Below are positions 7,103-25,350 of a DNA stretch of 64,000 nt, piece after piece. Origin of the DNA: Phyllobacterium myrsinacearum (GTDB lineage: Bacteria; Pseudomonadota; Alphaproteobacteria; Rhizobiales; Rhizobiaceae); NCBI RefSeq assembly GCF_002980555.1, contig NZ_PVBT01000004.1, forward strand, positions 1 through 64,000, written 5' to 3'. Every line of letters starts with the position of its first letter. The stretch's first letter is position 1. The notes beneath the pieces were generated by a model. The model ran no database searches and was not told the origin of the DNA. It worked only from the letters and a program-made list of their open reading frames with translations. A program made the position numbers and the translations under genes.

Positions 7103-7539
7103 GTGGTTGGAATGCTAGTTGGCGCATGTCACATGACGCTCAACCGGGGCAAGAAGTCCGTGGTGCTTGACCTGAAGAAGGAAGATGATCTGGAGGCCAT
7201 GCGGCAACTGACAGCATCGGCGGACGTCTTCATCACCAATGTCCGGGAGAAGGCGCTGGCTCGTCTCAATATGGGTTACGAGCAAGTCAAAGCGCTCCAT
7301 GAAGGCATCGTCTACGTGCATTGTGCAGGCTTCGGCTCCGCGGGGCGGTACCGTGATTTACCGGCTTACGACGACGTCATCCAGGCGACGACCGGAGCGG
7401 CTACATCAGCATCGTGCTCTACACGGATAAGATTGCCGCTGACATAATTGATCTGATTGGTGACAAGAAGTTGAAGGAAGACGGCAGGTTCAAGGACCGC
7501 GAGGGGCGCATGCTCAACGCGCGGCATCTCAATGACTAA
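7103..7539 (+). pseudogene. Relic of a family III (CaiB/BaiF) CoA-transferase
   Basis: The translated frame reads NRGKKSVVLDLKKEDDLEAM, then ADVFITNVREKALARL and AYDDVIQATTGA. These are hallmarks of the N-terminal third of family III CoA-transferases. The catalytic N-terminus (about 50 residues) is missing. After the AYDDVIQ block the sequence jumps, with a frame change, to a segment beginning GYISIVLYTDK and ending in EDGRFKDREGRMLN. In intact enzymes that segment lies well over 100 residues further on. The gene has therefore lost its 5' end, an internal block and its 3' end. The remains cannot encode a working enzyme. Confidence 0.75.
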
Positions 7540-7721: not shown

Positions 7722-8189
7722 ATGTTCAATGTGACTGCTAGTGACCTGCATGCCTATTTTGGTTTCGATCCGGAGCGAGAGTCAGACCTCAAGAAATTGG
7801 ATGGATTGATCCGCAGCGCTGCTCCCTCACTCAAGTGCTATTTTCATGAGGGTAAACGGGCAGGAAGCGCCGGTATGCGTATGAAAATGATAGGCTACGG
7901 CAAGTTTCGCTATTCAATAAAGTCCGGCAAATCGACCGACTGGCCGGTGATCGGCGTCGCTCTTCAGAAGAACTATATAAGCGTCTATTTCTCCGTCACC
8001 ATCGATGGCCACCCGATCGTTGATTGCTACAGGGGCAAACTTGGGGAAAAGCGATCGGGGAAGAACAACTTCAGCTTCGCGAGATTTGACGAACTGAAGA
8101 GCGGAGAAGTTGTCAAACTGGTTGTGGAAACAGCCAAGGCATTCAACAGGGATCCCGAGAATCCTGTTTATTACCGGGAGGGTTCATGA
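7722..8189 (+). CDS. DUF1801-domain protein (YdhG-like)
   Basis: A 155-residue cytoplasmic protein with the frataxin-like DUF1801 fold. Recognisable parts are the N-terminal LDGLIRSAAPSLKCYFHEG helix-turn, a central KMIGYGKFRYSIKSGKS, and IGVALQKNYISVYFS, followed by KRSGKNNFSFARFDEL near residue 115. No enzymatic activity is established for the family. The gene has its own start after an AGAGGAGAT ribosome-binding site and stands alone among decayed genes. Its coding quality suggests it is intact. Confidence 0.75.
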   Translation: MFNVTASDLHAYFGFDPERESDLKKLDGLIRSAAPSLKCYFHEGKRAGSAGMRMKMIGYGKFRYSIKSGKSTDWPVIGVALQKNYISVYFSVTIDGHPIVDCYRGKLGEKRSGKNNFSFARFDELKSGEVVKLVVETAKAFNRDPENPVYYREGS

Positions 8190-8505: not shown

Positions 8506-8641
8506 CCAGTTGTGGCACGACTATGAACTCCAGGCGGTCACTGCAATGTCGGCTTCAAGGCGAAGGCGAAGATCGCCTCTGTGGTAGACATCGGGCGCAA
8601 AGGGTGCGACGGCGCCTATGAGTTCGCCAGGATGGCGCCTA

Positions 8642-9316
8642 TTAAAGAACCCCTCCATCTGCCTGCATGTAATCCGCGACGCTGTAGCAATGGCTCGCCT
8701 GATAGGCATTACGCCCCCGGTTCATGTGCGTCAGGTTGAACGTCCGAATGGCGCGCACCATGCGGCGGCTCGTCAGGAATTTGCGGATCGAGACGGAACC
8801 ATGCACTTTGATGCCGAAAATGTCCGCACCACGCGGGAAGAAATAGCTGACGTGCTCCGGTATCGCGACACTTTGCTCGAGCAGGGGTTCGTCCACCCGG
8901 CTCGGCGTGGCTGAACGATCCGTTGTGAAATCCGAAAGATGCACGATGAATCTGGCGCGGATATCTTCGTCCTGGGCATAGAGCGTGAAAAGCTCCATCC
9001 AGCTCGCATTGACGCGGACGAGCGGTTTGTCCGAGGTCGACGGCAGACAGGAAACCGACCAGTAGTAGCGCTCGGTCTTGCGCGGGATCGGAATGCAGTT
9101 TGGACCGTACAGCCCGAGAATTTCCAGGACTTCCCCTGCTTGCGGGCGACCAAGCAGCTTCTCAAATCGCGCCAGGTATTTGAAACGCTGTTCCAGGGAT
9201 TCCAAGCGGTCGGCCGTGTCCGGCAAGTCGATCTTGCCCTCTATCCAATCGCGCTGTTGTTCAAGATCAAGGAATTGCCGTAGGCCGGTGGTTCTAGGCC
9301 GAGAGGTTGCACCCAT
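8642..9316 (-). CDS. Hypothetical protein, 224 residues
   Basis: A soluble 224-residue protein with no signal peptide or membrane helix. The N-terminal 60 residues are predicted helical with many charged residues (LDLEQQRDWIEGKIDLPD). The middle contains an aromatic stretch ERYYWSVSC and a strand-rich part around VNASWMELFTL. The C-terminal 70 residues hold a basic segment SRRMVRAIRTF and a HCYSVADY end. A stop codon lies in frame just upstream of the ATG, so the start is bounded. I do not recognise the family. The gene is isolated among degraded genes and could itself be recently acquired. Codon use looks genuine. Confidence 0.55.
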   Translation of the reverse strand: MGATSRPRTTGLRQFLDLEQQRDWIEGKIDLPDTADRLESLEQRFKYLARFEKLLGRPQAGEVLEILGLYGPNCIPIPRKTERYYWSVSCLPSTSDKPLVRVNASWMELFTLYAQDEDIRARFIVHLSDFTTDRSATPSRVDEPLLEQSVAIPEHVSYFFPRGADIFGIKVHGSVSIRKFLTSRRMVRAIRTFNLTHMNRGRNAYQASHCYSVADYMQADGGVL

Positions 9317-9588
9317 ATCAAAAGCCCTGCGAATTTCGTGTGCTCATCGTCGGCCGACTCCTGTGTTCTCGCTTGGGCGTTTGCAAGTCTGAGCACCGCG
9401 CCCAACGCCCCTCCGAATGATATCTCGCAGAGGGGGAATTTGGAATGTCTGTGCGACCACGAAGGTAAAGTCACGTTGATCGTCCGTTTGGCGCTTTCAC
9501 TCGACTGCCGTCCTCCACGGGAGTCGAGCTTACGCAGGGCGGCCATGCGATTTTTGGGTCATGACGCAATCACACCAAGGAATATAGC

Positions 9589-10163: not shown

Positions 10164-10892
10164 TCAGTGGCGAAGGATCTTGCTGAGGAAGGCACGGCTG
10201 CGATCGGTCTTTGGATGAGAGAAAAAATCTTCCGGTGTACCACTTTCCACAATGCCACCTGCATCCATGAATACGACGCGCTGTGCGACCTTGCGCGCAA
10301 AACCCATTTCGTGGGTGACAACCATCATGGTCATGCCTTCTTCGGCTACGCTGACCATGACGTCGAGCACTTCGCTGATCATCTCGGGGTCGAGGGCTGA
10401 TGTCGGTTCATCAAACAGCATGATCTTGGGTCGCATGCAAAGGCATCGGGCAATAGCGACCCGCTGCTGTTGTCCTCCGGAGAGCTCCGATGGGTAAGCG
10501 TTGAACTTGTCGGCGAGCCCAACTCTTGCGAGTAACTCGCGCCCAGCCGCTTCGGCGGTCGAACGGGCGATTTTCCGCACGTGAATCGGCGCGAGTGTAA
10601 CATTCTCCAATGCAGTTTTGTGCGGATAGAGATTGAAGGATTGGAACACAAAGCCAATTTCGGCGCGCAGATCGGTCATGTTGGTTGCCGGATCGCCGAC
10701 GCGTTGACCGTCGACGATGAGATCACCGTCCTTTGTGGTCTCAAGACCGTTGACGCAGCGGATCAAGGTGCTTTTGCCGGAACCGCTTGGCCCGCATATC
10801 ACCACCACCTCGCGCGGTTCGATGCTGAGGGTGATATCCTTGAGCACATGCAGTGCTCCAAACCATTTGTTGACACCGCGAAACTCAATCAT
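10164..10892 (-). CDS. Polar amino-acid ABC transporter, ATP-binding protein
   Basis: A 242-residue ATPase of the HisP/GlnQ class. It has Walker [10 protein letters not shown] near residue 37, the Q-loop FQSFNLYPH, signature LSGGQQQR near 140 and Walker [14 protein letters not shown], followed by the switch VTHEMGF. The frame extends 53 codons upstream, but that part is not protein-like. The chosen ATG has a GGAAGG site directly before it. It would energise import with the two permeases encoded just upstream (10930-11604 and 11601-12278) and the binding protein at 12383. It is the last gene of the leftward series. Confidence 0.92.
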
Positions 10893-10929
10893 GCCTGGGT
10901 ACCTTCCTTGATGGTGTATCTGCCAGAGT

Positions 10930-11604
10930 TCACAATTGCACCTCGCCATGAGCCGTTCCCATGCGACGTTCAAGTTTGCGGGCAAGCAAGATGAGGGGAT
11001 AGCAAACGATGAAATAGCCAACGCCGACAATGGCGAACACAAGCAGCCCATTGGGTACCCGTTGCACCACTAGCCAGCCAACCCGGGTGAGGTCGGTCAA
11101 GCCGATTGCTGAGACGACAGAGGAATCCTTGATAAGGAGAACATATTGCCCCACCAGTGGTGGCAAAGACATTCGCATTGCTTGTGGTAACACTACTTGC
11201 TGTATTCGCTGTCGGCGCGACAGGCCCGATGCAAGCGCCGCCTCGACCTGGCCGTTTGGAACGGCGCGGATACCAGCGGCAACGATTTCGCAAATGAAAC
11301 ACGCCGCAAGGTTGGACAGTGCAATGATACCAGCTGTGAAAGCATCAAGCTCAATGCCCAACTCCGGTAGGATGAAGAAAATCAGAAAAATCTGCACAAG
11401 GAATGGAGTTCCACGTATCAGGTCGACCCAAGCGCCGATCACGCGACTGATCAACTGATTGCTGCCAGTCCGCACTATACCGAGGGCAAAGCCGATGAGC
11501 GTGCCCAGAACAAGACTGATCAATGACAGCGCCACAGTCATGCCAAGGCCCCGCAAGGCCAGCGGATAGCTCCCGATGAGACCTTGGAATTGTTGCCAGA
11601 TCAT
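10930..11604 (-). CDS. Polar amino-acid ABC transporter, permease
   Basis: A 224-residue inner-membrane permease of the HisMQ type with about five membrane helices. The EAA loop [18 protein letters not shown] lies near residue 130. The start is the ATG preceded by GAGGAGCCGAAC. An ATG 29 codons upstream lies within the preceding gene and is unlikely. Its start overlaps the stop of the next permease by four bases (ATGA), so the two are translationally coupled and should form a heterodimer. Confidence 0.9.
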
Positions 11605-12278
11605 GTTCGGCTCCTCATCGGCTGTGAACCAAGCCAACGCCCTGACAGGGCCGCCAGACCCTTCAATCCATAGTAGAGGATGAGATAGCACGCTGCGGTT
11701 GTTATAAAACCCTCCGCCGGCATGAAGCGGTCAGAGGCGAGAAGCTGCCCGGCCCGCGTTAGTTCGGAAACGGAAATCAGGGACAGCAGCGCGGAATCCT
11801 TCACCAGCACAATGGCTTGGCCGAGGAGGGGGGGAATGGTCACGCGAAAAGCCTGAGGCAGGACCACCAAGCGCATGCGCTGCATGTAAGTCATGCCGGA
11901 CGCAATACCCGCTTCCACCTGCCCGCGGGCGATCGAAAGGATGCCCGCCCGGATGATCTCGGCGATATAAGCTCCACTGTTCAACGATAGAGCAAGAATG
12001 CCGACAACGAGTTCCGGCAGTACGATACCCAGTCGCGGCAAACCAAAATAAAGAAAATAAAGCTGCGCCAGCAGAGGGGTTGCACGGATGGCATCGATAT
12101 AGATCTTTGCCGGAACTTTGGACAAGCGGGAGCGTTGCAAATTCATTGCACAAAGCACAATTCCAACCGCCAGTGCGCCGGCGAAGGAAACGACGGACAA
12201 CCAAAGCGTGGCAAGGAAGCCGTGTCCGAACAGCGGCAGGTACTCGGCAATGGTGCGAAAGCTGAAATTTTCAAGCAT
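11601..12278 (-). CDS. Polar amino-acid ABC transporter, permease
   Basis: A 225-residue HisMQ-type permease. It begins with a short cytoplasmic tail (MLENFSFRTIAEY) and a first helix LWLSVVSFAGALAVGIVL. The coupling loop is ASGMTYMQRMRLVVLPQA near residue 138. The DAIRATPLLAQLYFLYFGLP stretch before the third helix is characteristic of this permease class. A GAGGA site stands eleven bases before the ATG. It pairs with the permease whose start overlaps its stop. A gap of about 105 bp separates it from the binding-protein gene. Confidence 0.9.
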   Translation of the reverse strand: MLENFSFRTIAEYLPLFGHGFLATLWLSVVSFAGALAVGIVLCAMNLQRSRLSKVPAKIYIDAIRATPLLAQLYFLYFGLPRLGIVLPELVVGILALSLNSGAYIAEIIRAGILSIARGQVEAGIASGMTYMQRMRLVVLPQAFRVTIPPLLGQAIVLVKDSALLSLISVSELTRAGQLLASDRFMPAEGFITTAACYLILYYGLKGLAALSGRWLGSQPMRSRT

Positions 12279-12382
12279 GTCCGGGATGATTCCTCAGGCG
12301 ACTGTGCAGACGATAATCGGGCAGACGGGTGGCCGTGGACAGGTTGAAAAACCAGCACGCGACCACCCAAATCTATCCCTGT

Positions 12383-13171
12383 CTAGTGATCTTTCTTCCA
12401 TGCGTCTGAGTTGACCCAGTAATCCAGATTCTTCTGGAGGCGACCGTCAATGGCGACCTGATCGAGAAACAGATTCATCCAGATGAGGAGATCCTGTTCG
12501 TCATAACGTGTCGCAAAGGCCAAAGGCTCTTTCGACAGCATTTCCGGCATGATTGTGAAGCTTCCGACCGGATAGGCAGCTGACTGGCCTTTCACAGCAG
12601 AGACATCGTTGACGCCGCAATCGGCCTGACCATTGTTGACGGCGTCGAGGAGGAGTGGGCCACCACCCTTGTAGCTCTTGATGTCAGCATCCGGGAATGT
12701 GGCTTTGGCGACCTTTTCACCGGTAGCACCCAATAGTACCGCGATTTTGGCGCCGGCTGCCTTGCAGGAATCGATCGTGGTGAACTTACTGCCCGCTTTT
12801 GCAAAAACGGTACTGCCCGTGAACATGAAAGGTTTGGTGAAGGCGACTTTCATGGCGCGCGGCAGAGTCGGGGTCATGTCCGCAACCAGCAGATCGGCCT
12901 TGCCGGACAGGAGCGCCGGAATAAGCCCATCCCAGTCGAAGTCGAGAAAACTGATTTTCACGCCCATTTCCTTTGCCATCAGTTCGGCAAGTTCCACAGA
13001 ACTTCCTGTGCGCTTACCGGCTTGATCAACCATGGAAAAGGGTGGGCCTTGTGTCTGGACTGCGACACGCAATTCTCCGCGCTTGACGATATCATCGAGC
13101 GTTCCGGCGCTTGCGGCGCCAGCGGCGGTGAGTATCGCAAGACCTGCGATGAACAAGTTGGCAATCTTCAT
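12383..13171 (-). CDS. Periplasmic polar amino-acid-binding protein
   Basis: A 262-residue family 3 solute-binding protein. The signal peptide ends around AAGAASA, and the mature protein starts GTLDDIVKRGELRVAV. The ligand-site landmarks are present: PPFSMVDQAGKRTGSSVELA, the ADMTPTLPRAMKVAFTKP loop and a conserved C-GVNDVSAV aspartate strand. A GAGGAGG site precedes the ATG. The segment MTPT..R..KVAFT fits a carboxylate- and ammonium-binding pocket, so the ligand is probably an amino acid or relative. It heads the second transporter of the cluster and follows the Lrp gene on the same strand. Confidence 0.9.
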   Translation of the reverse strand: MKIANLFIAGLAILTAAGAASAGTLDDIVKRGELRVAVQTQGPPFSMVDQAGKRTGSSVELAELMAKEMGVKISFLDFDWDGLIPALLSGKADLLVADMTPTLPRAMKVAFTKPFMFTGSTVFAKAGSKFTTIDSCKAAGAKIAVLLGATGEKVAKATFPDADIKSYKGGGPLLLDAVNNGQADCGVNDVSAVKGQSAAYPVGSFTIMPEMLSKEPLAFATRYDEQDLLIWMNLFLDQVAIDGRLQKNLDYWVNSDAWKKDH

Positions 13172-13195
13172 TTCCGGTTCCTCCTCGTTATATGT

Positions 13196-13210
13196 CGTCT
13201 ATTTTAGACG
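13196..13210. promoter_or_regulatory. Palindrome CGTCTA-TTT-TAGACG, possible Lrp-type operator
   Basis: Perfect six-base arms flank an AT-rich three-base centre, 25 bp before the ATG of the binding-protein gene and 45 bp after the stop of the Lrp-family gene. Lrp/AsnC operators are commonly 15-bp dyads with an AT-rich middle. The fit in size and place makes this a candidate site for the neighbouring regulator. No experiment or alignment supports it. Confidence 0.3.
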
Positions 13211-13222
13211 TTCTTGGTATGG

Positions 13223-13239
13223 GTCCGATCTCCTCGGAC
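13223..13239. repeat. Inverted repeat GTCCGA-N5-TCGGAC
   Basis: Perfect six-base arms around TCTCC lie 17 bp after the stop codon of the Lrp-family gene (leftward). No U-tract follows on the leftward strand, so it is a poor terminator. It may be an RNA hairpin separating the regulator from the transporter genes or a second binding site next to the dyad at 13196. Confidence 0.3.
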
Positions 13240-13255
13240 AAGATTTTCAGAATGA

Positions 13256-13762
13256 CTATTCGCTGTGTGGCACCTCTGTGCTTTCGGACCAGCATCCTTC
13301 AGGCAGATTGACCCATTTGTTGCACGATGCCATCACCACGAAGGTTTCCGTGCGGACGATTTCTCCCAGATCGCCAACCGCCGGAATTAACTCGCTGGTG
13401 ACCCGATAAAGGTCTGCTACATCCCCGGCAACGACAACATCGACAATAATATCGAACCGTCCTGTCACGACAGATGCGGAATTGACGAAGGGTAGTTCTG
13501 CAATGCGGCGTGCGATCTCCCGCGCGCGGCCCCGCCCTTGAGCGTTGACGCCGACAATGGCTGAAATCAGTTCCGGACGCTCGGTCAGGTTCAGCAGACC
13601 TGTAATCTTGAGAAGGTTCCGGTCAAGCAGATTGCGCAGCCGTGTCCGTACTGTCGGTACGGATATCTCCATCATCTCAGCGAGCCGCGTAATACCTAGC
13701 TGGGCATTCTGTGAAAGCAGTTTGACGAGCCGGCGATCGGTTTGGTCGAGATGATCTCGCAA
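13256..13762 (-). CDS. Lrp/AsnC-family transcriptional regulator
   Basis: A complete 168-residue Lrp/AsnC regulator. The N-terminal DNA-binding domain begins LDQTDRRLVKLLSQNAQLG and has the recognition helix SVPTVRTRLRNLL near residue 33. The C-terminal ligand-binding RAM domain (residues 70-150) contains FVNSASVVTGRFDIIVDVVV. The start is a TTG; an in-frame TGA directly upstream excludes a longer protein. Such regulators respond to amino acids. Its place between the flavoenzyme/pheS genes and the second transporter suggests that it senses the substrate of this cluster. Confidence 0.88.
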   Translation of the reverse strand: MRDHLDQTDRRLVKLLSQNAQLGITRLAEMMEISVPTVRTRLRNLLDRNLLKITGLLNLTERPELISAIVGVNAQGRGRAREIARRIAELPFVNSASVVTGRFDIIVDVVVAGDVADLYRVTSELIPAVGDLGEIVRTETFVVMASCNKWVNLPEGCWSESTEVPHSE

Positions 13763-14108: not shown

Positions 14109-15176
14109 TCAGAGTCCTCCAAACAAAGTTGGAATATCGAGCGGACGAAAGCCATAGTGATCGAGCCAACGCACGTCGGCGTCAAAGAAGGCGCGCAGAT
14201 CAGGCATTCCGTATTTCAGCATAGCGATCCGATCTATGCCCATGCCCCACGCAAAGCCTTGATAGATGTCAGGATCAAGCCCGCAATTACGCAGCACATT
14301 TGGATGTACCATTCCACAACCAAGGATCTCCATCCATTTGTTGCCTTGCCCGATCCGAAGTTCCCCGCCTTCTGTTGAACAAAGAATATCCGCCTCCATA
14401 GAAGGTTCGGTAAAAGGGAAGAAGGATGGGCGAAAGCGCATTTTCAGATGTTCGACCTCGAAAAACGCTTTCAGGAAGTTTTCAAGAACCCACTTCAGGT
14501 GGCCCATATGTGAGCTCTTGTCTATGACAAGTCCCTCAACCTGATGGAACATTGGTGTGTGCGTCTGATCGCTGTCGTTGCGATAGGTACGGCCGGGGAT
14601 GATGACACGGATCGGCGGCTCAACGTTTTCCATAGTCCGGATCTGGACCGGAGAGGTATGCGTTCGCAGAACTTTGCGGTGGCCACTCACATCCGCATTC
14701 ATAAAGAACGTGTCATGCATTTCCCGAGCCGGGTGACCGATTGGGAAGTTCAACGCAGTGAAATTATAGAAGTCCGTCTCGATTTCGGGGCCTTCCGCGA
14801 TCGCAAATCCCATATCAGCAAAAATGGCGGTGATTTCATCGATTACTTGCGATACAGGATGAATTCGTCCGTGAGTTTCGGAGCCGGAGCGCACTGGCAA
14901 GCTTACGTCGAGCCCTTCCTGAGCGAGCTTCGCACTTACATTCAATTGCTTCAGGTGGATTTTTCGTTCTGACAATGCCGACTGAACGACATCGCGCAAC
15001 CCATTGATCTCTGCGCCCCGAAGCTTGCGATCCGCTATGGACATGGAGCCGAGCGATCTGAGCTGGGCAGTGATTACCCCCTGCTTTCCGAGCGCTTCGA
15101 TACGGATTGCCTCGAGCTTTTGCTCGTCGCTTGCTTCAGCAATTCCGGACAGGAATTCTGCGATGATTTTCTGCAT
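14109..15176 (-). CDS. pheS: Phenylalanyl-tRNA synthetase alpha subunit, orphan copy
   Basis: A full-length 355-residue PheS. The N-terminal 90 residues form the tRNA-binding coiled-coil arm. The class II catalytic core follows, with motif 1 around [22 protein letters not shown], motif 2 near [19 protein letters not shown] (about 195-212) and motif 3 [10 protein letters not shown] near 311. All expected active-site blocks (FHQVEG, FPFTEPS, GFAWGMG) are present. By hand alignment to remembered E. coli PheS, Thr251 and Ala294 correspond to Thr256 and Ala309 here and are kept. The usual small residues next to the substrate pocket are changed to Met260 and Ala262. No pheT lies in the window. The ATG follows the oxidoreductase stop by four bases, so it is the last gene of a catabolic operon. 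It probably pairs with chromosomal PheT. Its role is unknown; protection against an amino-acid analogue is an inference. Confidence 0.93.
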
Positions 15177-15180
15177 GGGT

Positions 15181-16653
15181 TTATCTCATCACCGCATTCT
15201 TCGCTGCCTGGCTTTGCGGCATCGACGCAATCTCTTCCAAGGTTATAGGCTTAATCGGCATACGTAAGTGCAGATGGCCAACCTCATGCACAGGCACACC
15301 GCGCTGTTCGGCAATCAGTTCGATTATGCTCGATCCGCACATCCGCCCCTGACAAGGCCCCATGCCTGTGCGCAGATACGCCTTAAGTTGGTTTGGCCCC
15401 TGCACATTCAGGTCATTCACTACGTCCCGGATTTGCTGCGCTCGAACTTCCTCGCACCGACAGATGATTGTTGATGGGTCTGTTGGGCGCAGCATCGGTT
15501 GCGTAGGGCAAAAGAGACGGTCGATGAAAGCCCGGCCGCGCGCAAGCCGCACTGCTTGCTTTTTCAAGGGACGCGACATTGTATTCCGCGATGCGACATC
15601 AATCCGGCCAAGCGCGGCAGCGGCTGCAATCGCCGCCATTTTTCCACGAACGGCAGCGCTGGGTGCCCCTGCGATACCGGCACCGTCGCCAGCGATCCCG
15701 ATCCCCGCTACCGAAGATTCCAGCCAATCGTCTACAACCGGTGTCCACGCATGCACCGACTCATCCCAGAACAGCTCACAGCCTAGCGCGCTGGCCATAT
15801 TGATGTTGGGGATGATGCCGTGATGCAGTAATACATGATCGCACTCAATGCTTCTACTTATTCCGTTATCGTTAAAATCAATACGCTGCACACAATCACT
15901 GCCAACTATACTAAGACCGCTGACCTTTCTACGCATCGGCAGTGAGAAGCGGCTCTTTGCCAGAAGTTTTAAACCGTAGAGAGCATAAGTCGAGCACAGA
16001 AAGTCCGCCAGTTGCGGCAGGGCTGCGGTGAAATTACCCCTTGGCGTAGTCTCCAGAACGGCAACAATGTTGGCGCCCGACCGCTTCAACTGGTCGGCTA
16101 GCAAAAGCAGAAGGGGGCCGCTGCCGGCTATAATGGTTCGACCCTCCGGCACAAGACCGGAGGATTTAAGCGCAATCTGTGCCGCCCCTGCGGTCATAAC
16201 GCCCGGCAAGGTCCAGCCGGGTACTGGCACAGGGCGTTCTATTGCCCCGGTTGCTAGAATTAGGCGTCTCGCTCGAATGAGCCGGGCCTTGCCGGTCTGG
16301 GACAATCCAACTTCGAAATGCGTCGGCTCGATCAGCTTACCAGTATCATCAAGGGCGGGTTCAACTGACCACACGACAGTCCTCGCCGTGTAATCAACCA
16401 CGGATTTTTCGAGATCATGCACGAGGGCAAGGCCTTCCCAATAGGCGCTACCAAGGACACTGCGACGTTTTACGGGCGTGGTGGTTATAGCGCGATAAAT
16501 CTGACCTCCAGGGCTGATATTTTCATCCGCTAAAAGGGTTGTTAGACCCAGTTGGTTAGCCTCGGCCGCCGCAGCAAGGCCGGCCGGTCCCGCACCAACG
16601 ATCACAAGATCGTAACGATCGGCGATGCTATCAATGTTGTCGATTCTGTTCAT
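15181..16653 (-). CDS. FAD/NAD-binding oxidoreductase with C-terminal 2Fe-2S domain (HcnB/opine oxidase A-like)
   Basis: A 490-residue flavoprotein subunit. The first Rossmann motif [20 protein letters not shown] lies near residue 17, and [11 protein letters not shown] is typical of HcnB and opine-oxidase A subunits. A second nucleotide motif [16 protein letters not shown] lies near 170. The C-terminal BFD-like domain has ICRCEE near residue 393 and GPCQGRMCG near 427, providing four cysteines for an iron-sulphur cluster. It overlaps the preceding small ferredoxin-like gene by four bases. The three-subunit complexes of this family oxidise glycine, opines, proline or N-substituted amino acids and pass electrons on through the cluster. 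Substrate unknown here. Confidence 0.85.
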
Positions 16654-16997
16654 TGATCGGTGTTCTCCAATGCGTCAACTGTGCGTGCGCCGCGCTGCGG
16701 TTCGACAACCATGCCCTGACGTACCGGCGTGAGGCACGCCTGACGATTTCCGATACCATCGACGACGACAAGGCAATCGAAGCAGACACCCATCAGACAA
16801 TAGGGACCGCGCTCAGTACCCGAAATCGAGGTTCGGCGGAACGCATTCACACCATTGGCGAGCAGGGACGCCGCCAAGGTATCGCCGTTGCGCGCGCGCA
16901 TCAGGCGTCCGTCAAAGGTGAACTCGATGATCAGATCGAGCGGATTGCTGGGCTGATCGGTGGCTTGTGACAGCTGTCTGCTAATTGGCCGGAACAT
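16650..16997 (-). CDS. 2Fe-2S ferredoxin-like subunit (HcnA/opine oxidase C-like)
   Basis: From the chosen ATG the protein has 115 residues. It carries the plant-type ferredoxin-like pattern of HcnA: YCLMGVCFDCLV followed eleven residues later by ACLTPV, giving C-x4-C-x2-C-x11-C. RARNGDTLAASLLANGV precedes the cluster, as in the family. A GAAGAGG site stands before this start. An ATG nine codons further upstream lies deeper in the previous gene and is less likely. It overlaps the upstream DAO gene by 17 bases and the downstream flavoprotein by four, showing one coupled operon. It should transfer electrons between the two flavin subunits. Confidence 0.85.
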   Translation of the reverse strand: MFRPISRQLSQATDQPSNPLDLIIEFTFDGRLMRARNGDTLAASLLANGVNAFRRTSISGTERGPYCLMGVCFDCLVVVDGIGNRQACLTPVRQGMVVEPQRGARTVDALENTDQ

Positions 16998-18111
16998 GGA
17001 ACCTCTTCGGAGTGAATGCGGCAAGAGTTTCAGGCAGCCGTGCGTTTTGTGCCAGCGCGGGTCCCAGCGTCATGGCGTGGACGCCAGCGAGCGTGACGCC
17101 CGAATGGCAGCTCGTTACGAAGGCTGGGGGATCACAACTCGTCTGATCATAGATCGGGAAACCATCCGGGCTCATGACACGAAGCGCGGACCAGGTGCGC
17201 ACCACATTGAGGTGTCGCAGCCGCGGAAACATCTGGATCGCCCGGTCCGCCATGACCGAAAGTACACCTGTGCCGGTGACGTTTTCGAATCCGGCATCTT
17301 CTTTGCTGTCGCCGATCAGGACTCCGCCTTCATTCGTCTGGCGGATTGTGACCATCGGATTGTGCAGGAAGGGAACGGTTTTTTCCGTGACGATCAATTG
17401 CCCGCGGCTGGGTTTGACAGGAGCCTCAAGTCCCACCATCGGAGCCAATCTGGCATTGCCAAGACCGGCTGCCAGAACCAGCTTCGCTGTCCTGATCTCG
17501 CCCCAGCCGCCTTTAACCCGGAAGCCCTCTGGCGTCCGCTCGATGATCTCGACCGCATGGGTCGGCCGGTATTCGCTTCCCTTCATCGCTAAATAGCTAT
17601 GGAGTGCGCGCATGAGTAGCAGCGGGTTTGCATGCCCATCGAGAGGGCTAAAGACGGCACCGACGACTTTGTCTCCGATATGCGGCAGGCGTCTTTTCAC
17701 CTCGTCATGGTCAAGGATTTCGTACGGGAAGTGCGCGACATTCGGCTGACTGTGAAATTGCTGCAATTTTGTAAGCCGCGCATCCACCTCTTTCTGGGAG
17801 AGACAAAGAGTGAAACCTCCCGGCTGGCTATGCGCGATATCAATACCGGTCTCGCTGCGGAGAATCGCAGCAAGGTCATTCCATTCCTTGGCGGATCGCT
17901 GTGTCCAGGCAGCGTAAGCGGGCATTGCCAGGCCTTTCGATTGCACCCAGACCAGAGCGAAATTACCGCGCGAAGCCCGAAACGCGATATCTCCTTCATC
18001 AAGCAATATGACACTTTCGCCGCTTCGCGCGAGGCCAAATGCGATCGATGCACCTACTATACCACCACCAACAACGACGGTATCGGCCTCTGTCATCTTA
18101 TATCGTAACAC
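16981..18111 (-). CDS. FAD-dependent amino-acid oxidoreductase (DAO family, HcnC/opine oxidase B-like)
   Basis: A 376-residue DAO-family flavoenzyme. The dinucleotide motif VVVGGGIVGASIAFGLARSG starts near residue 12, and a GNFALVWVQSKG block near 51 resembles HcnC and OoxB. The C-terminal half has RTWSALRVMSPDGFPIYDQT near 308 and a TSCHSGVTLAGV end that closes the flavin site. The first codon is GTG; an ATG five codons later (18096) is an equally good start. With the two following subunits it forms an oxidase or dehydrogenase for an amino acid, imino acid or opine-like secondary amine at the membrane. It begins 112 bp after the amidase gene. Confidence 0.88.
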   Translation of the reverse strand: MLRYKMTEADTVVVGGGIVGASIAFGLARSGESVILLDEGDIAFRASRGNFALVWVQSKGLAMPAYAAWTQRSAKEWNDLAAILRSETGIDIAHSQPGGFTLCLSQKEVDARLTKLQQFHSQPNVAHFPYEILDHDEVKRRLPHIGDKVVGAVFSPLDGHANPLLLMRALHSYLAMKGSEYRPTHAVEIIERTPEGFRVKGGWGEIRTAKLVLAAGLGNARLAPMVGLEAPVKPSRGQLIVTEKTVPFLHNPMVTIRQTNEGGVLIGDSKEDAGFENVTGTGVLSVMADRAIQMFPRLRHLNVVRTWSALRVMSPDGFPIYDQTSCDPPAFVTSCHSGVTLAGVHAMTLGPALAQNARLPETLAAFTPKRFHVPAN

Positions 18112-18222: not shown

Positions 18223-19590
18223 TTATAGTTGAGCAGCAATCAGCGCTTCTTGAATAGCGATGCCGATTGAAAGGAGATCGCGGTCGCACTTGTTATGGCC
18301 GACGAGCATCAAGCCTACCGGCGCCGTACCTGGCAAATGAATTGGTATGGACAATGCAGGTCGGTCGAGAAAGTTCGCCAGATTGCAGTTGCGCAGAATG
18401 AGTGCGCTCATGGCCTCGAAGGCTTCGGGCGTCTGCACATCGGCAATGGGTGGTGCGACGACAGGACAGGTGGGCATGATGATCGCATCAAAGCGGTGTG
18501 TTTTCGTGCAAACCACTTCCGTAATTGTCTGTCTCTGTCGGAGAGCGTCGACGTAGTCGGATGCACTGACTGTTGCGCCCTTCCGAAGACGAGCCAGAAA
18601 GATCGGATCGATCAGTTCCGGACTTTTGGCGACCAGATTCCGGTGAATAGCGAAAGCTTCGGCAGGAGAAATGCCTCCTCTGGCATTAATATTACGAATT
18701 TCCGCAATCTCGGGCAGAGAGAAGTGGGAGAGGCGAACACCTTGCTCAGACAGTTGTGACAATGCCACAGAGTATGCCCTCGCGACTTCGAGGGCCAGAT
18801 CTTCCAAAGGTTCTCCCTCAACGATGCCAATATGAAGGCCTTTGACTGATTTACTACGCGGGTATGAAATCGGTATTCTATCGTCACCGGACATGGCGGC
18901 ATTGAGGATGGCGCAACAGGAGACCGATTTCGCGATTGGGCCGACAGTATCCAACGAGTAGGATCTTGGAAAAACGCCTTCGAGCAGAGCAGGCGAAAAC
19001 GTGGGTTTGAAACCGGAAATGCCGCAAAGAGCAGCGGGCGCCCGAATAGATCCGCCTGTGTCTGTGGCAAGCGAACCTGCACACATCCCATCAGCAACGG
19101 CGACAGCAGATCCTGACGAAGAGCCGCCCGGAATCCGTCCCGCGTGCCGGTCATAGGGGTTGCTGGGCGTGCCGTAATTACGATTCAGGCCGATGCCTGA
19201 AAAAGCGAACTCCGACATGGTGGTCCGGCCAATAAGAATGGCACCTGCGGCGCGTAGTCGCCTGACAGGTTCTGCGTCGAACTTAGCCGTCGGCTCGTGA
19301 TGACGTGCTACAGACCCGGCTCGCGTGATTTCACCGGCCACATCGAAAGCATCTTTGATCGAGATTGGAATACCGCAGAGCAGTAGCCGCTCGTCGCGCC
19401 ATACAGCATGGCGGTCGATATGATCGGCAAGATCACGAGCGCGATCGTGCCACACAGTCATGAAAGTCCGACTACCCTCGCCACGAGGGTCATCGATCCG
19501 CTCCAGGGCTTCTTCGACAAGTTGTCGGGCGGTTACAGCTCCAGCGCGCAGATTGTCTGAGAGTTCCGCAATTGTCTTGTTGTGCAACAC
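18223..19590 (-). CDS. Amidase-signature enzyme
   Basis: A 455-residue member of the amidase-signature family. The Ser-cisSer-Lys triad is visible: Lys in GIPISIKDAFD near residue 79, the glycine-serine core IPGGSSSGSAVAVADG at 153-168, and the nucleophile in TDTGGSIRAPAALCG near 181. Length matches GatA-like and aliphatic amidases, but there is no gatB or gatC here. It begins with a GTG 13 bp after the ABC ATPase gene. It therefore probably hydrolyses an amide or N-acyl bond in whatever the Ehu-type transporter brings in. No signal peptide, so the reaction is cytoplasmic. Confidence 0.88.
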   Translation of the reverse strand: MLHNKTIAELSDNLRAGAVTARQLVEEALERIDDPRGEGSRTFMTVWHDRARDLADHIDRHAVWRDERLLLCGIPISIKDAFDVAGEITRAGSVARHHEPTAKFDAEPVRRLRAAGAILIGRTTMSEFAFSGIGLNRNYGTPSNPYDRHAGRIPGGSSSGSAVAVADGMCAGSLATDTGGSIRAPAALCGISGFKPTFSPALLEGVFPRSYSLDTVGPIAKSVSCCAILNAAMSGDDRIPISYPRSKSVKGLHIGIVEGEPLEDLALEVARAYSVALSQLSEQGVRLSHFSLPEIAEIRNINARGGISPAEAFAIHRNLVAKSPELIDPIFLARLRKGATVSASDYVDALRQRQTITEVVCTKTHRFDAIIMPTCPVVAPPIADVQTPEAFEAMSALILRNCNLANFLDRPALSIPIHLPGTAPVGLMLVGHNKCDRDLLSIGIAIQEALIAAQL

Positions 19591-19603: not shown

Positions 19604-20350
19604 CTATAGTATTTGCGAAAGGAACAGCTTCGAGCGTGGATGTTGCGGGGTGGAGAAAAATGCCTCAGGTGCGTTTGTCTCTACAATCTGGCCAGCATCC
19701 ATAAAAATAACCCTGTCAGCGACTTCACGCGCAAAGCCCATCTCATGGGTGACACACAGCATTGTCATTCCGTCGCTCGCGAGCGACACCATTGTGTCAA
19801 GCACTTCCTTGACCATTTCCGGATCAAGGGCCGAGGTCGGTTCGTCGAAAAGCATGATTTTGGGGTTCATGCACAAACTCCGCGCAATAGCGACCCGCTG
19901 CTGCTGTCCGCCTGAAAGTTGACCCGGATATTTATGTGCCTGTTCAGGTATCTTGACCCGCTGGAGATAATCCATCGCGACTTCCTCCGCATCACGACGG
20001 GACATTTTCCGTACCCAGATGGGGGCGAGTGTGCAGTTTTGCAAAATGGTCAGGTGCGGAAAGAGATTAAAGTGCTGAAACACCATGCCGACATCCCGGC
20101 GTACTTCATCGACTTTTTTCAGGTCATTCGTCAGCTCTGTATCACCAACGACGATTTTTCCGCGCTGGTGTCCCTCAAGGCGATTGATGCAACGGATCAT
20201 TGTTGACTTTCCTGAGCCTGATGGTCCGCAGATGACGATCTTTTCACCTCTTTTGACGGTCAAATTTATATCCGTCAGAACCTGAAACTTTCCGTACCAT
20301 TTGCTGACATTGGAAAGTGCAACAGCGATGGGTGGCAATGCAGATTGCAT
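19604..20350 (-). CDS. Ehu/polar amino-acid ABC transporter, ATP-binding protein
   Basis: A 248-residue ATPase with Walker [10 protein letters not shown] near residue 42, Q-loop FQHFNLFPH, signature LSGGQQQR near 146, Walker [14 protein letters not shown] and switch VTHEMGF. It resembles the ATPase at 10164 but is clearly a separate gene; the two differ throughout their N-terminal and helical regions. AAGGA stands before the ATG. It follows the permeases at 20380-21691 and would drive the transporter headed by the binding protein at 21688. Confidence 0.92.
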
Positions 20351-20379: not shown

Positions 20380-21042
20380 TCAGCCCGCTTTAGGAGAGAG
20401 ACGCAAACGCGACTCGATAACCTTGACAAGCCCTGAGAAACAAAGCGCCAGTGTGAGAAAGATTATGCCGACCACCGTCATAGGCTCGGTGTAGCGGAAG
20501 GTCTCAGAAGCAATTTCAAGTGCGACCGACAACATTTCTGGTACCGCGATAATTGCGAGGTAAGGTGTCGCTTTAAGCAGGGACACAAAGTAGTTTCCCA
20601 TCGGAGCGGCGACGTTACGAAGCATCTGAGGCGCTATCACGAACATAATGAGCTGCAATCGCGATAAACCGAGAGCCTTTGCTGCTTCGAACTGGCCTGC
20701 GGGGATTGAATCAATTCCCCCTTTGAATACCTCGGCGAGATAGCCGCTGTAATAGAGGCTCAAGGCAAGAACACCGACCACGAGTCCAGGCAATGTGAGA
20801 CCATATTCTGGTAAGACAAAGTAAAAAAAGTAGATTTGCACCAGCAGTGGTGTCGATCTTATGAAGTCAATCAGGAATCGCATTGTATAGCGACCAGGCT
20901 TGCTCGATCGCCGTACAATTTCCCAAAGAAAGCCAAGGGCCGCGGCGCCCATACATCCAATTATAGTGGCAAATAACGTAGTCGTTATGGTGCTGAGAAT
21001 ACGTGGTAGGATCGACAATGCGAACTCAGGATCAAAGGTCAT
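20380..21042 (-). CDS. Amino-acid ABC transporter, permease (EhuD-like)
   Basis: A 220-residue permease with about five helices, including [20 protein letters not shown] and the coupling loop [18 protein letters not shown]. The ATG chosen has GTGAGG eight bases upstream. A GTG six codons earlier would give a longer overlap with the preceding permease gene and is less likely. It overlaps that gene by 11 bases. With its partner it forms the membrane channel of the first transporter. Confidence 0.88.
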
Positions 21043-21691
21043 GGGAAACCTCACGTCCACGGCTCACCCGACGCTCAATCATCCGTCCGACGATTGTCGC
21101 TGGATAACACATCAAAAAGTATACGATCAGAAGAGCCGTGTAGATCTTGGCGGGGGCGTAGTGAATTTGAGACAGAGCTTTGGCAAGAAAGGTCATATCG
21201 GCCAGGGTAACCAAAGATACCAGCGACGTTCCTTTTACGAGCTGGATGAACTGGTTGATGAAAGTCGGCGTCATCGCCGCCAATGCCTGTGGTAGTTCAA
21301 TCAGATATAAAATACGGAGGCGACGAAAGCCGAGAGCATAACCTGCTTCAACCTGTCCCGGATCGAGCGCCTGGAGGGCGGCACGAACGGCCTGACTGCC
21401 ATAGCCGCCAATGTTCAGACCCAACACCATAGCTCCCACAGTCATGGCTGACAGATTGATGCCAAGACCAGGCAGGGAGAAGTAGAAGCCGTAGATCAAG
21501 ATAATTACCGGGGAACTTCGCCAAAACTCAATGATGGACGTTACGATCAGCCGAGGAATGCCATTGGTGAAATGCTGCGCCACACCAAATACAAAAGCGA
21601 ATGGAACCGCATAAAGCATACCGTACAACGTCACCTTCATGGTGACGTTGATGCCGACAAGAATACTGGCCATAATATCGAACAAACTCAT
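21032..21691 (-). CDS. Amino-acid ABC transporter, permease (EhuC-like)
   Basis: A 219-residue HisMQ-type permease beginning MSLFDIMASILVGINVTMKV. The third helix region reads IEFWRSSPVIILIYGFYFSL, and the coupling loop is ALGFRRLRILYLIELPQA. The chosen ATG overlaps the stop of the binding-protein gene as ATGA, the usual sign of coupled translation. An upstream alternative start lies eight codons inside that gene. Confidence 0.88.
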   Translation of the reverse strand: MSLFDIMASILVGINVTMKVTLYGMLYAVPFAFVFGVAQHFTNGIPRLIVTSIIEFWRSSPVIILIYGFYFSLPGLGINLSAMTVGAMVLGLNIGGYGSQAVRAALQALDPGQVEAGYALGFRRLRILYLIELPQALAAMTPTFINQFIQLVKGTSLVSLVTLADMTFLAKALSQIHYAPAKIYTALLIVYFLMCYPATIVGRMIERRVSRGREVSHDL

Positions 21692-22575
21692 TTTGGCTGT
21701 TCCGGTTCTGAACAAAGCCGATCGGCAGTCTTGTTAGGAGGAAGGTTGTCTTCTGTGAAGCCAGTGGCGAGGATGATCTTCTCCAGTTCGCCGCTCTCCT
21801 TGAGCTTCCTGAGTTGCTCATTGTATAGATCCCGCAGATCGATATCGTCCGGACGGAATGCAATTCCCGTAACCAACGCAACATCGTTGCCTTCCGCGTC
21901 TTTCAAAGGAACAAACGGCTTGGCTTTCTCGATCCCCTTCACGTTTGGATCGGACATGGTTGCGATAATCGTGGCCGCCGACATGATGACGGCATCGACA
22001 CGCTTAGCAACGAGTGCAGACACCATTGACTCAACGTCTTGGAACTGTTGGATCTGGGATGTTGGCACACCTGCCTGAATAGCATGTGCCGCATTGGCTG
22101 ACCCCCTCGCGCCAGCTAGCCTGATATCCGGATTGTTCTTGATATCCTCAAAGCCATGGATCTTCAACGGATTGCCGGCTGCAACAAGCAACCCATCCCC
22201 ACTAGTGAGATCTGGCTCGCTGAAGATAACAGACTTACAGCGCGCTGGCGTAATGGCAACGCCTGCCGCCGTCATATCAAAACGACCGGCCAACAGGCCG
22301 GGGATCATCGTATTAAATTCGCCGATCACAAACTTTACATCAGTTACGCCGAGGGGCGCCAGGGCCGCCCGAATGATCGAGGGCTGCAGACCTAAAACGT
22401 TGCCTGCTTGGTCGCGATAGCCCCATGGAACGCGATTGTGAATGCCGATGGTCACGCTCTTCTGCGACAAGATGCGTTCCTTGGTCGTTTCCGCCTGCGC
22501 GGAAGAGCAAGCAAGGCCGACCGTGATCGCAAACGTGAAAGCAGATGCGCCAAGTGTTGGATAAAGTCGTGTCAT
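21688..22575 (-). CDS. Ehu-type periplasmic solute-binding protein
   Basis: A 295-residue family 3 binding protein with a signal peptide ending near SSAQAET. Several blocks resemble EhuB, the ectoine/hydroxyectoine receptor of Sinorhizobium: GLQPSIIRAALAPLGV, FNTMIPGLLAGRFDMTAAG, ITPARCKSVIFSEPD, GLLVAAGNP and a closing DRLC. The mature protein begins with VTIGIHNRVPWGYRDQAG, where the aromatic and charged ligand residues sit. Family membership is firm. Ectoine as the ligand is only one option, because no ectoine-degradation genes are nearby. An AGGGG site precedes the ATG. First gene of the long leftward series. Confidence 0.88.
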   Translation of the reverse strand: MTRLYPTLGASAFTFAITVGLACSSAQAETTKERILSQKSVTIGIHNRVPWGYRDQAGNVLGLQPSIIRAALAPLGVTDVKFVIGEFNTMIPGLLAGRFDMTAAGVAITPARCKSVIFSEPDLTSGDGLLVAAGNPLKIHGFEDIKNNPDIRLAGARGSANAAHAIQAGVPTSQIQQFQDVESMVSALVAKRVDAVIMSAATIIATMSDPNVKGIEKAKPFVPLKDAEGNDVALVTGIAFRPDDIDLRDLYNEQLRKLKESGELEKIILATGFTEDNLPPNKTADRLCSEPEQPK

Positions 22576-22723: not shown

Positions 22724-23641
22724 TCAGATGAGATCGCGTTGGCTTTTTGCCCCTGTCGGCGGCAAGCTTCGTGCCTGCATCAGAGCAGCAGCCATGGCGT
22801 TCACGATACGTGATCTTTGCACGTCGGGCCTAAAGAGAAGGTGGCTCTTGAAATGAACATCAGGTGTGAATGGCCTAACTTCCAAGCCACGCTCGGAATA
22901 TCCCTCGGCAGCAATCGGATTTGCTATGCCGACGCCGATACCTTCCAGAGCTAACGCACAGACGGTTGACGAGTTTGGGGTCTCAACGACAATCGACGGT
23001 ACAGCTTCATGCTTTCTGAAAATGAGATCCAGCTCAGTGCGCGCACGATCGCCCGGTGCCAGAGCAATGAAAGGTTCGCGATGGAGAAACTCGGGTCTGA
23101 TTGCCTTTTGAGAGGTCAACGGATGGTTGTGGGGGAGAACACAAACAGCTTTGAAACTGGCAAATCGTTGGTGATCGACACCAGTAAGATCGATTTCGTC
23201 TGCAGCCAAACCAATATCGAATTGGCCCTTCGCGACAAACTCTTTCACATTCGGAGAGGAATCTACGTGGAGCGTGACGCCAACGCCCTTATGTTCTTCC
23301 TGAAACAATTTGATTGCCCGCGGTATCAGAGTCGATCCCATCGCGGCCAGACTTGCAATACGAATATGTCCGGACCCGAGATCGCGGATTGTAAGTGAGG
23401 ACGCTTTAAGGCGATCCATTGCCAGGAACGCATTCGCTACTTCTTCAGAAAAGAGCTGTCCCTCTGGCGTAATCACCAGCCGACCGCGGACCCGATTGAA
23501 CAGCGGAAATCCGAGCGAAGCTTCGAGATCGGTAATTGAACGGCTAATCGCTGGCTGTGATATATCCAGCAACTCAGAGGCTCGCGAAGCCGAGCCACCG
23601 CTAATTACCGCTCGGAAAATCTCCAATTGACGAAAGTTCAC
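22724..23641 (-). CDS. LysR-family transcriptional regulator
   Basis: A 305-residue LysR regulator starting at GTG (NFRQLEIFRAVISGGSASRA). The recognition helix is LLDISQPAISRSITDLEASL at residues 24-43, and the effector domain spans about 90-295. An SDLTGVDHQRF-like effector loop and GIGVGIANPIAAEGY support the usual fold. It lies between the leftward transporter/flavoenzyme operon and the rightward lyase operon. A shared CCTATAAC motif occurs on both sides. It is the leading candidate for pathway-specific control. Confidence 0.92.
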   Translation of the reverse strand: MNFRQLEIFRAVISGGSASRASELLDISQPAISRSITDLEASLGFPLFNRVRGRLVITPEGQLFSEEVANAFLAMDRLKASSLTIRDLGSGHIRIASLAAMGSTLIPRAIKLFQEEHKGVGVTLHVDSSPNVKEFVAKGQFDIGLAADEIDLTGVDHQRFASFKAVCVLPHNHPLTSQKAIRPEFLHREPFIALAPGDRARTELDLIFRKHEAVPSIVVETPNSSTVCALALEGIGVGIANPIAAEGYSERGLEVRPFTPDVHFKSHLLFRPDVQRSRIVNAMAAALMQARSLPPTGAKSQRDLI

Positions 23642-23786: not shown

Positions 23787-24986
23787 ATGTACGACCAGAC
23801 CAAGTGCGTTCACCATCCAATAGTTTCCCTAGAAGGCTATGTAAGCATCGGCGTAGCGACTTATCGCGCCTCGACCATTGTCTTTGACGACGTCCAATCC
23901 TATGCGGATCGCCATACACGTGGACCGACCGGCTACAGTTACGGTCTTTACGGCACTCCGACGAGCCGCACGCTCGAGGCGCAACTCACACAGTTGCATG
24001 GCGGTGTGGGGACGGTCCTCTTACCTTCGGGGCAAGCTGCCATAACGAGCATTATGCTCTCGGTCCTTCGTCCTGGTGATCGTGTTCTGATACCGAGTAG
24101 CGTTTACCCGCCGGTGATGACGCACTGTGCGACTTACCTTAGAGAATTTGGCATCGACCATACAATATATGATCCGCTTTGCGGTTCTGGAATAGAACAG
24201 CTGATTGATTCTCGGACCAAGCTTGTCTGGGTAGAAAGCCCGGGATCGACAAGCCTTGAAGTACAAGACCTTCCAGCCATCGCGGATGCGTCTCATCGTG
24301 CGGGCGCTCTTGTTGGCTGCGACAACACATGGGCTTCGCCTCTGTTATGCAAGCCACTTACTCTCGGTGCTGATTTCGTGGTGGAGGCCTTGACCAAATA
24401 TGCCGGCGGTCACTCAGATGTGCTTCTGGGCTCGGTCACCGTACGCGACGAACCAAATGACACAAAGCTTCGCGACTGGTTACGCACGATGGGCATCGGC
24501 GTCTCTCCTGATGATTGTACGCTTGTTTTGCGTGGGTTAGAGACAATGGGCGTACGGCTTGCGCATGTGGGGCGCGTAGCAGCCGATATCGCTCGCAAAC
24601 TTGGTCGATCCACTGCCGTGCAGCGGGTGCTTCATCCTGCTTTGCCGGAACATCCTGGCAACGCAAGCTTTGTCAGGGATTTCACAGGAGCAAGTGGACT
24701 GTTCAGCGTTGAACTGAAGCAGCAGGCCGTTCCGTTACTCCCTATGGCGCTCGAGGGGCTGAAGTATTTTAAAATCGGCGCTTCCTGGGGCGGAACCCAT
24801 AGCCTGCTGGCGCCGATTACACTCGCAGCAACGCAAAGTACGCGTTCTCGGTGCAAGAGCCGCACCTATCTCAGGATCAGTATCGGTCTTGAGGACCCTG
24901 ATGACATCTGGGACGACCTGAATACGATTTTCTACCGGCTCGAGCGTCAGCTGCAAAACATCTCGCTCCCAAATAAAGACTATTGA
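23787..24986 (+). CDS. Cystathionine beta-lyase-like PLP enzyme (C-S or C-N lyase)
   Basis: A 399-residue Cys/Met-metabolism PLP-dependent enzyme. Landmarks are YSYGLYGTPTSRTLEAQL near residue 50, LPSGQAAITS near 80, WVESPGS and CDNTWASPLL near 180, and the PLP lysine in EALTKYAGGHSD near 205. The active-site arginine lies in RTYLRISIGLED at the end. Length equals MetC. Enzymes of this subgroup break the bond to the beta-carbon of cystathionine, S-substituted cysteines or, in mimosinase, a ring nitrogen. They release pyruvate through an enamine/imine. The RidA gene directly downstream supports that chemistry. It is probably a dedicated catabolic enzyme rather than housekeeping MetC. Confidence 0.88.
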   Translation: MYDQTKCVHHPIVSLEGYVSIGVATYRASTIVFDDVQSYADRHTRGPTGYSYGLYGTPTSRTLEAQLTQLHGGVGTVLLPSGQAAITSIMLSVLRPGDRVLIPSSVYPPVMTHCATYLREFGIDHTIYDPLCGSGIEQLIDSRTKLVWVESPGSTSLEVQDLPAIADASHRAGALVGCDNTWASPLLCKPLTLGADFVVEALTKYAGGHSDVLLGSVTVRDEPNDTKLRDWLRTMGIGVSPDDCTLVLRGLETMGVRLAHVGRVAADIARKLGRSTAVQRVLHPALPEHPGNASFVRDFTGASGLFSVELKQQAVPLLPMALEGLKYFKIGASWGGTHSLLAPITLAATQSTRSRCKSRTYLRISIGLEDPDDIWDDLNTIFYRLERQLQNISLPNKDY

Positions 24987-24999
24987 AAGGAAACAAGAC

Positions 25000-25350
25000 A
25001 TGACTGTCAAGCGACACGTCCAGACACCCATCATGCACCGCGTTGTCGAGGCTGCCGGCCTGATTTTCATCGGCGGTACAACTGCGGATGATAAAAGTGC
25101 GGGTATCGAGGGGCAAACCAACCAGATTCTGTCAAAACTGGAGAAGCTTTTGCAGCAGGGAGGGAGCGACAAGAATCACGTTGTCCAGGCAACGATCTAT
25201 CTCTCCGACCTGTCTCTCAAAGCGGAAATGAATGAGGTCTGGACCCGTTGGTTCGCGGCCGACAGTCTCCCTGCGCGCGCTGCCGTTGGAGTAGCAGAAC
25301 TTGCAAAAGGCACCCTGGTCGAAATTACCTTTATCGCTGCGAAAGTCTGA
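25000..25350 (+). CDS. ridA: RidA-family enamine/imine deaminase
   Basis: A 116-residue RidA/YjgF-fold protein. The conserved AGLIFIGGTTADD near residue 20, VVQATIYLSDLS near 62 and the LPARAAVGVAEL segment with the catalytic arginine near 92 are all present, followed by a VEITFIAAKV end. RidA proteins form trimers and hydrolyse reactive 2-aminoacrylate or related imines left by PLP lyases. The gene begins 13 bp after the lyase stop with a good AAAGGAAAC site. This is strong contextual support for a beta-elimination pathway. I am confident of the family; whether it is the RidA subgroup proper or a relative is less certain. Confidence 0.88.
   Translation: MTVKRHVQTPIMHRVVEAAGLIFIGGTTADDKSAGIEGQTNQILSKLEKLLQQGGSDKNHVVQATIYLSDLSLKAEMNEVWTRWFAADSLPARAAVGVAELAKGTLVEITFIAAKV

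Follow-up and report, generated by a model that had tools for sequence, protein, structure and literature searches.

Duplicate resistant synthetases occur in antibiotic producers and on agrocin plasmids, where they sit with the genes for the compound that targets the synthetase. The duplicates in producer clusters are complete synthetases. In contrast, the gene described here, PheS2, encodes one subunit of a heterotetramer, and it lies in a cluster that appears to serve uptake and degradation.

Among described systems, the canavanine operon of Pseudomonas canavaninivorans comes closest. It encodes a PLP lyase pathway for a toxic plant amino acid with CtdA adjoining, and there is a homologue in Rhizobium leguminosarum; CtdA is a stand-alone canavanyl-tRNA(Arg) deacylase related to the B3/B4 domains of PheT (PMC10018355). 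A translation-fidelity gene is thus found beside a rhizosphere PLP-lyase catabolic operon, as proposed here for the PheS2 island. CtdA edits tRNA(Arg) after charging, whereas PheS2 is a candidate replacement for the charging subunit of tRNA(Phe) and is without an editing domain. Pfam gave the PheS core and the N domain alone for PheS2, with no B3/B4 domain; its context is CtdA-like, in that a PLP enzyme and genes of a degradation type adjoin it in two genera. In Rhizobium sp. TAL1145, midABCD encode an ABC importer and a C-N lyase for mimosine, a toxic aromatic beta-substituted alanine. Compared by description only, this rhizobial set of importer and lyase resembles the island; unlike the island, it has no synthetase gene in the available parts of the reports that describe it (PMC11524260, PMC3333776).

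A search of the open literature (titles and the beginnings of abstracts, with subscription journals mostly outside it) found no report of an orphan pheS in a catabolic operon, and the open literature likewise gave none of a second pheS or of PheRS self-resistance.

PheS2 and the host genome

The window, which is the whole stretch of 64,000 nucleotides that was analysed, represents the first 64 kb of a 417,676-bp contig of Phyllobacterium myrsinacearum (assembly of 5.44 Mb in 44 contigs). An intact PheS of 355 amino acids was called at 14109–15176 on the minus strand. The original prediction of a complete pheS in this interval was supported by a score of 334.7 bits against TIGR00468 (cut-off 237.45), which assigns the protein to the curated PheS family, and by both Pfam domains, an N domain and a class II core (PF01409, PF02912). 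Its coordinates were right and its strand was corrected to minus, since the plus-strand frame over the interval contains three stops. The four-base gap that it noted was borne out: 4 bp separate the stop of a flavoenzyme subunit gene (15181–16653, minus strand) from the ATG of PheS2, which is the last gene of a conserved block.

As also predicted, the window contained no pheT. A single pheT match was obtained from the genome; it lies on another contig and adjoins a second pheS (PheS1) whose product is 70% identical to PheS2. Thus, the genome owns a pheS–pheT pair apart from PheS2, and PheS2 is no near-identical copy of the chromosomal gene. Because there is one pheT match, any role of PheS2 in aminoacylation would require the host PheT. 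The G+C content of the PheS2 gene (0.52) was lower than that of the chromosomal pheS (0.60). RepC, a plasmid replication family, had one match in the genome, on a contig other than those of the window and of pheST.

PheS2 has the domains of the usual bacterial PheS (TIGR00468) and shares its catalytic blocks and the pocket residues checked. It differs in that pheT is not adjoining, in its position at the end of a catabolic operon, and in a fixed divergent segment at residues 261–282. No tRNA gene that might partner the synthetase was found in the window, no PADLOC defence-system model matched PheS2, and scans for promoters and terminators gave sites no more numerous than in shuffles. A phage origin was rejected, as the viral contig scan gave no relative and the single PHROGs match was a family without function.

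The shared block and its distribution

Plasmid pAA02 of Aminobacter aminovorans KCTC 2477 encodes a PheS 82.3% identical to PheS2, the only one above 70% among the PheS matches of 56 plasmid records. A block of 14 genes was common to the window and pAA02 in the same order, with pheS at the end of both, and all 14 proteins matched in place at 67–88% identity. The pheS of pAA02 also has no adjoining pheT, and the spacing between flavoenzyme gene and pheS was 4 bp at one locus and 5 bp at the other. Eight of the 56 plasmid records, pAA02 among them, were examined; in five other annotated ones pheT directly follows pheS, one record has no annotation, and the match in another is a 28% identical hypothetical protein. 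The G+C content of the pAA02 pheS (0.55) was below the 63% of its host genome (PMC5146447).

The block consists of two arms on opposite strands (identities to pAA02 in brackets). One arm, on the plus strand of the window, begins at the outer edge with a methyltransferase at 26632–27318 (PF13489; 79%), continues with an AhpC-type peroxiredoxin at 25421–25978 (PF00578; 85%) and a RidA-family protein at 25000–25350 (PF01042; 85%), and ends with a PLP enzyme of the Cys/Met metabolism family at 23787–24986 (PF01053; 75%). The other arm, on the minus strand, starts from a LysR-type regulator at 22724–23641 (Pfam; 85%) and an EhuB-like substrate-binding protein at 21688–22575 (TIGR02995, 218.9 bits, cut-off 190.9; 79%). 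The amino-acid ABC importer is completed by two permeases at 21032–21715 (88%) and 20380–21060 (85%) and an ATPase at 19604–20350 (87.5%), all three named from syntenic gene annotation. An amidase at 18223–19590 (NF005460, 521 bits, cut-off 447; 67%), with biuret hydrolase as its nearest solved relative among PDB sequences, is followed by a three-component oxidase and then by PheS2. The oxidase comprises a DAO-type FAD subunit at 16981–18111 (Pfam; 85%), for which the nearest solved relatives in PDB sequences are glycine oxidases, a 2Fe-2S subunit at 16650–17024 (Fer2_4; 68%), and the FAD/NAD(P) oxidoreductase subunit adjoining PheS2 (Pyr_redox_2 and Fer2_BFD; 71%). The oxidase trio, the amidase and the EhuB-like importer would be compatible with the uptake and unmasking of an amino acid.

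The nearest solved chains of the PLP enzyme were MetC cystathionine beta-lyases and a cysteine-conjugate beta-lyase. Beta-elimination is not established for it, because its scores were under the NCBIfam cystathionine beta-lyase cut-offs (NF005456, 391.4 of 500; TIGR01324, 328.8 of 365.9). In the alignment it has YGLYG where E. coli MetC has YGRRG, so that an arginine usual in the family is missing. The RidA gene directly follows the PLP enzyme gene. RidA proteins hydrolyse 2-aminoacrylate, which is the product of beta-lyases.

An AhpD/carboxymuconolactone-decarboxylase-like gene (25993–26511, plus strand; PF02627) lies between the peroxiredoxin and methyltransferase genes in the window only, with no match in the pAA02 stretch. 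The methyltransferase gave a weak PADLOC match (mad2, 34.5 bits), which we took as a shared methyltransferase fold and not as defence.

The genes downstream of pheS differed between the two loci, an Lrp-type regulator and a second amino-acid importer in the window versus a TPP enzyme and others on pAA02. This makes pheS the border gene of a transferable block. The regulator and second importer (10164–13762) are likely the native flank of the island; the four importer genes were 88–94% identical to those on plasmid p_1 of Phyllobacterium sp. 628, and the last third of the regulator was 78% identical. Plasmid p_1 gave no pheS match. Further out, the region 8606–9488 resembled hypothetical genes of several Phyllobacterium and Sinorhizobium plasmids at 86–89% DNA identity, and the ORF at 8642–9316 matched neither Pfam nor PHROGs. 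A 155-aa ORF at 7722–8189 had no Pfam, PADLOC or PHROGs match, and a short ORF at 7103–7447 resembled, by eye, a broken CoA-transferase gene.

Parts of the block were found elsewhere. The Chelatococcus plasmid pCO-6 carries a related PLP enzyme, LysR regulator and importer (47–71% identical), with no oxidase or PheS in the stretch examined, and an Azospirillum plasmid carries the oxidase trio (52–58%) without PheS; neither belongs to the 56 plasmid records that matched PheS. On pCO-6, a succinylglutamate desuccinylase/aspartoacylase-like gene replaces the amidase and oxidase beside the EhuB-type importer. Since homologues of the flavoenzyme, PLP enzyme and importer occur without PheS, PheS is an accessory of one type of island, and the Chelatococcus module indicates that not every such pathway needs it. 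Both PheS2 loci found are accompanied by the flavoenzyme genes.

PheS2 was rare in the samples searched. These comprised 21 genomes of the genus, 297 of the family, 397 of the order, 115 of the class, and 10 and 4 of two further genera; the samples overlap, and the number of distinct genomes is 813 or fewer. PheS sequences identify the genus sample as Phyllobacterium, one of its genomes having a PheS identical to that of Phyllobacterium endophyticum, and the sample of 10 as Aminobacter. Only the genome of the window itself gave a match at E 1e-180 or better. In the family and order scans, some of the candidates were scored where a genome gave many at first look. Four of the 297 family genomes and five of the 115 class genomes gave no PheS match at all, and eight of these nine are less than 90% complete. 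A scan of genome contigs gave nothing above 74% identity to PheS2 among the best 80 of 583 relatives. For the island's PLP enzyme, the other 396 genomes of the order gave nothing at 1e-150, with up to four candidates scored per genome shown. Sampled genomes and plasmid collection together yielded two loci. The linkage of PheS2 with the operon accordingly rests on two loci, which share 13 neighbouring genes. The neighbourhood is conserved in another genus, on pAA02, but none of the 20 other genomes of its own genus has PheS2.

Active-site residues and segment 261–282

PheS2 was compared with 152 other PheS sequences, comprising 131 rows from Hyphomicrobiales (with PheS1 of the same genome present twice) and 21 from other alphaproteobacteria. 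Positions of E. coli PheS were mapped by alignment, and those of Thermus thermophilus via E. coli. A study of solved PheRS structures gives as pocket residues Phe258, Phe260, Val261 and Ala314 in T. thermophilus and Thr251 and Ala294 in E. coli (PMC3275996). Their equivalents in PheS2 are F253, F255, T256 and A309, each unchanged as in all 152 others. A309 corresponds to E. coli Ala294, so the alanine said to govern p-chlorophenylalanine sensitivity is indeed kept. The catalytic blocks were also intact as claimed: the class II residues checked, RTHTS (171–175), G307, G311, G313 and R316, were those of every other PheS, and W310 was shared by 133 of the 152.

The original prediction singled out Met260 and Ala262 beside the pocket and proposed that the altered pocket excludes a toxic analogue. 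Met260 proved ordinary, with methionine in 49 of the 152 others. Ala262 is unusual, since none of the 152 has alanine there and 144 have valine. Exclusion by means of the pocket is unsupported, because the known phenyl-ring contacts are those of all 152 others.

The main departure of PheS2 from other PheS was found directly after the strand that bears the pocket phenylalanines, in residues 261–282 (codons at 14331–14396, minus strand, a range calculated manually from the start of the gene). The two PheS2 proteins were identical at 22 of 22 positions here, compared with 11 of 22 between PheS2 and PheS1 of the same genome, a value below the lowest (0.59) among 130 ordinary rows compared with PheS1. 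For this difference the segment ranked first of all 22-residue spans, and its value was reached by none of 60 control pairs; these were ordinary pairs at 80–85% identity, nested among the compared sequences, so that the control favours the more isolated PheS2 pair. Twelve positions with at least 90% conservation in Hyphomicrobiales carry an atypical residue in both PheS2 proteins. The clustering of these 12 departures was modest, being reached in 485 of 20,000 random draws. At four positions, A262, L265, T268 and K280, the two agree on a residue present in 0 of the 152 others, and all four lie within 261–282; by alignment, the E. coli chain also has K at position 280. Outside the segment, the motif-1 region of PheS2 was 77% identical to PheS1, and conservation was lowest in the N-terminal region (62% between the PheS2 pair).

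Ancestry, proposed role and alternatives

In a tree of 47 rows, picked by hand and partly at random from 154, the two PheS2 were sisters (100/100) on their own branch inside Hyphomicrobiales (100/99), so that PheS2 forms its own clade. For this set, grouping of PheS2 with three Phyllobacterium PheS was rejected (AU p 0.0052). A faster tree, built from 78 of 134 rows, supported the pair with an SH-aLRT of 92 and placed it next to, but not within, the other Hyphomicrobiales. Neither placement makes PheS2 a recent copy of chromosomal pheS, and recent duplication is rejected on the 70% identity together with the AU test. Between the two PheS2 genes, pS was 0.765 and pN 0.111; the synonymous sites are saturated yet the protein is kept, which indicates that PheS2 is under purifying selection.

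Based on gene content and residue comparison, PheS2 may be a specialised alternative to the usual alpha subunit, one that joins host PheT and guards the synthesis of Phe-tRNA while a phenylalanine-like beta-substituted alanine is catabolised; we judge the chances of this to be about even. We infer the substrate, the order of steps, the induction, the PheT partnership and the altered discrimination. The LysR regulator would switch the island on when the substrate is present, and the importer would bring in an unusual amino acid, free or in masked form, which the amidase and the three-subunit oxidase would unmask. The PLP enzyme would then cleave a beta-substituted alanine to 2-aminoacrylate, to be cleared by RidA, and the peroxiredoxin would handle by-products of the oxidase. 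The free intermediate would resemble phenylalanine, a point we derive from the likeness of a ring-bearing beta-substituted alanine to phenylalanine. PheS2, made from the same operon, would assemble with host PheT and charge phenylalanine while being less harmed by the intermediate. The gene set is suggestive of mimosine as the substrate. Meta-tyrosine, by its chemistry, is not a substrate of beta-lyases, and for that reason it is not preferred here. It is a real phenylalanine mimic all the same (PMC4066437).

The unchanged pocket residues would also suit a PheS2 of ordinary specificity that provides dosage, adding alpha subunit or restoring PheRS lost to inhibition or to oxidative damage while the oxidase is active. 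Oxidase and peroxide-defence genes in the island are in line with this, as is the account that m-tyrosine arises under oxidative stress and must be edited by E. coli PheRS (PMC4066437). However, a fixed segment with four residues seen in 0 of 152 other PheS would be unexpected for a mere extra dose, and an excess of alpha subunit without more PheT should yield little, so we consider dosage unlikely, though not negligible. The amidase, for its part, might destroy a PheRS inhibitor such as a phenylalanine amide, and PheS2 would then be target-type resistance against the inhibitor rather than against a misincorporated amino acid. Alternative synthetases are known as resistance genes, but the importer, PLP enzyme and RidA better match the degradation of an amino acid, which makes such resistance distinctly unlikely. 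The orphan state of the gene, and the existence in NCBIfam of a PheS-related ligase (SrmL, NF051887), would agree with a PheT-independent PheS2 that serves the pathway by adenylation or ligation, in the manner of other stand-alone synthetase paralogues. This we find improbable, given that PheS2 reached 133.5 bits against the 300-bit SrmL cut-off, versus 334.7 bits for PheS, that it keeps the N domain and the aminoacylation blocks checked, and that its motif-1 region stays close to PheS1.

Production of a phenylalanine-like toxin by the block, with PheS2 as self-protection of the producer, could draw on the methyltransferase, oxidase and amidase as possible tailoring steps, and second aaRS copies are classic markers of self-resistance. 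It is nevertheless very improbable: an importer with a binding protein, a beta-lyase-like enzyme and RidA indicate uptake and breakdown, and no NRPS, PKS or export gene is among the 14 shared genes as annotated. We give least credence to PheS2 being a passenger that lies at the operon end by chance. With two loci only, some coincidence is conceivable, but saturated synonymous change at 82% protein identity, an intact frame at both loci and the spacing of 4 and 5 bp behind the flavoenzyme gene speak against it.

Self-protection is the best available reading, and by our estimate it stands evenly between right and wrong, though not by way of the changed pocket first proposed. Its more specific form is an inducible subunit swap, in which the operon's own catalytic subunit would protect the code, via the segment near the pocket, while a phenylalanine mimic serves as food; we advance this tentatively, as somewhat doubtful.

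If the proposal is true, this would be, as far as the searches go, the first synthetase specificity switch that has moved between genera within a degradation pathway. The analogue that PheS2 tolerates may provide a handle for finding a natural phenylalanine mimic and, beyond the known pocket residues, a shift in PheRS selectivity that evolved in nature. It would also mean that bacteria eating toxic amino-acid mimics can bring along a safeguard for translation of their own, in the form of one subunit of an essential enzyme.
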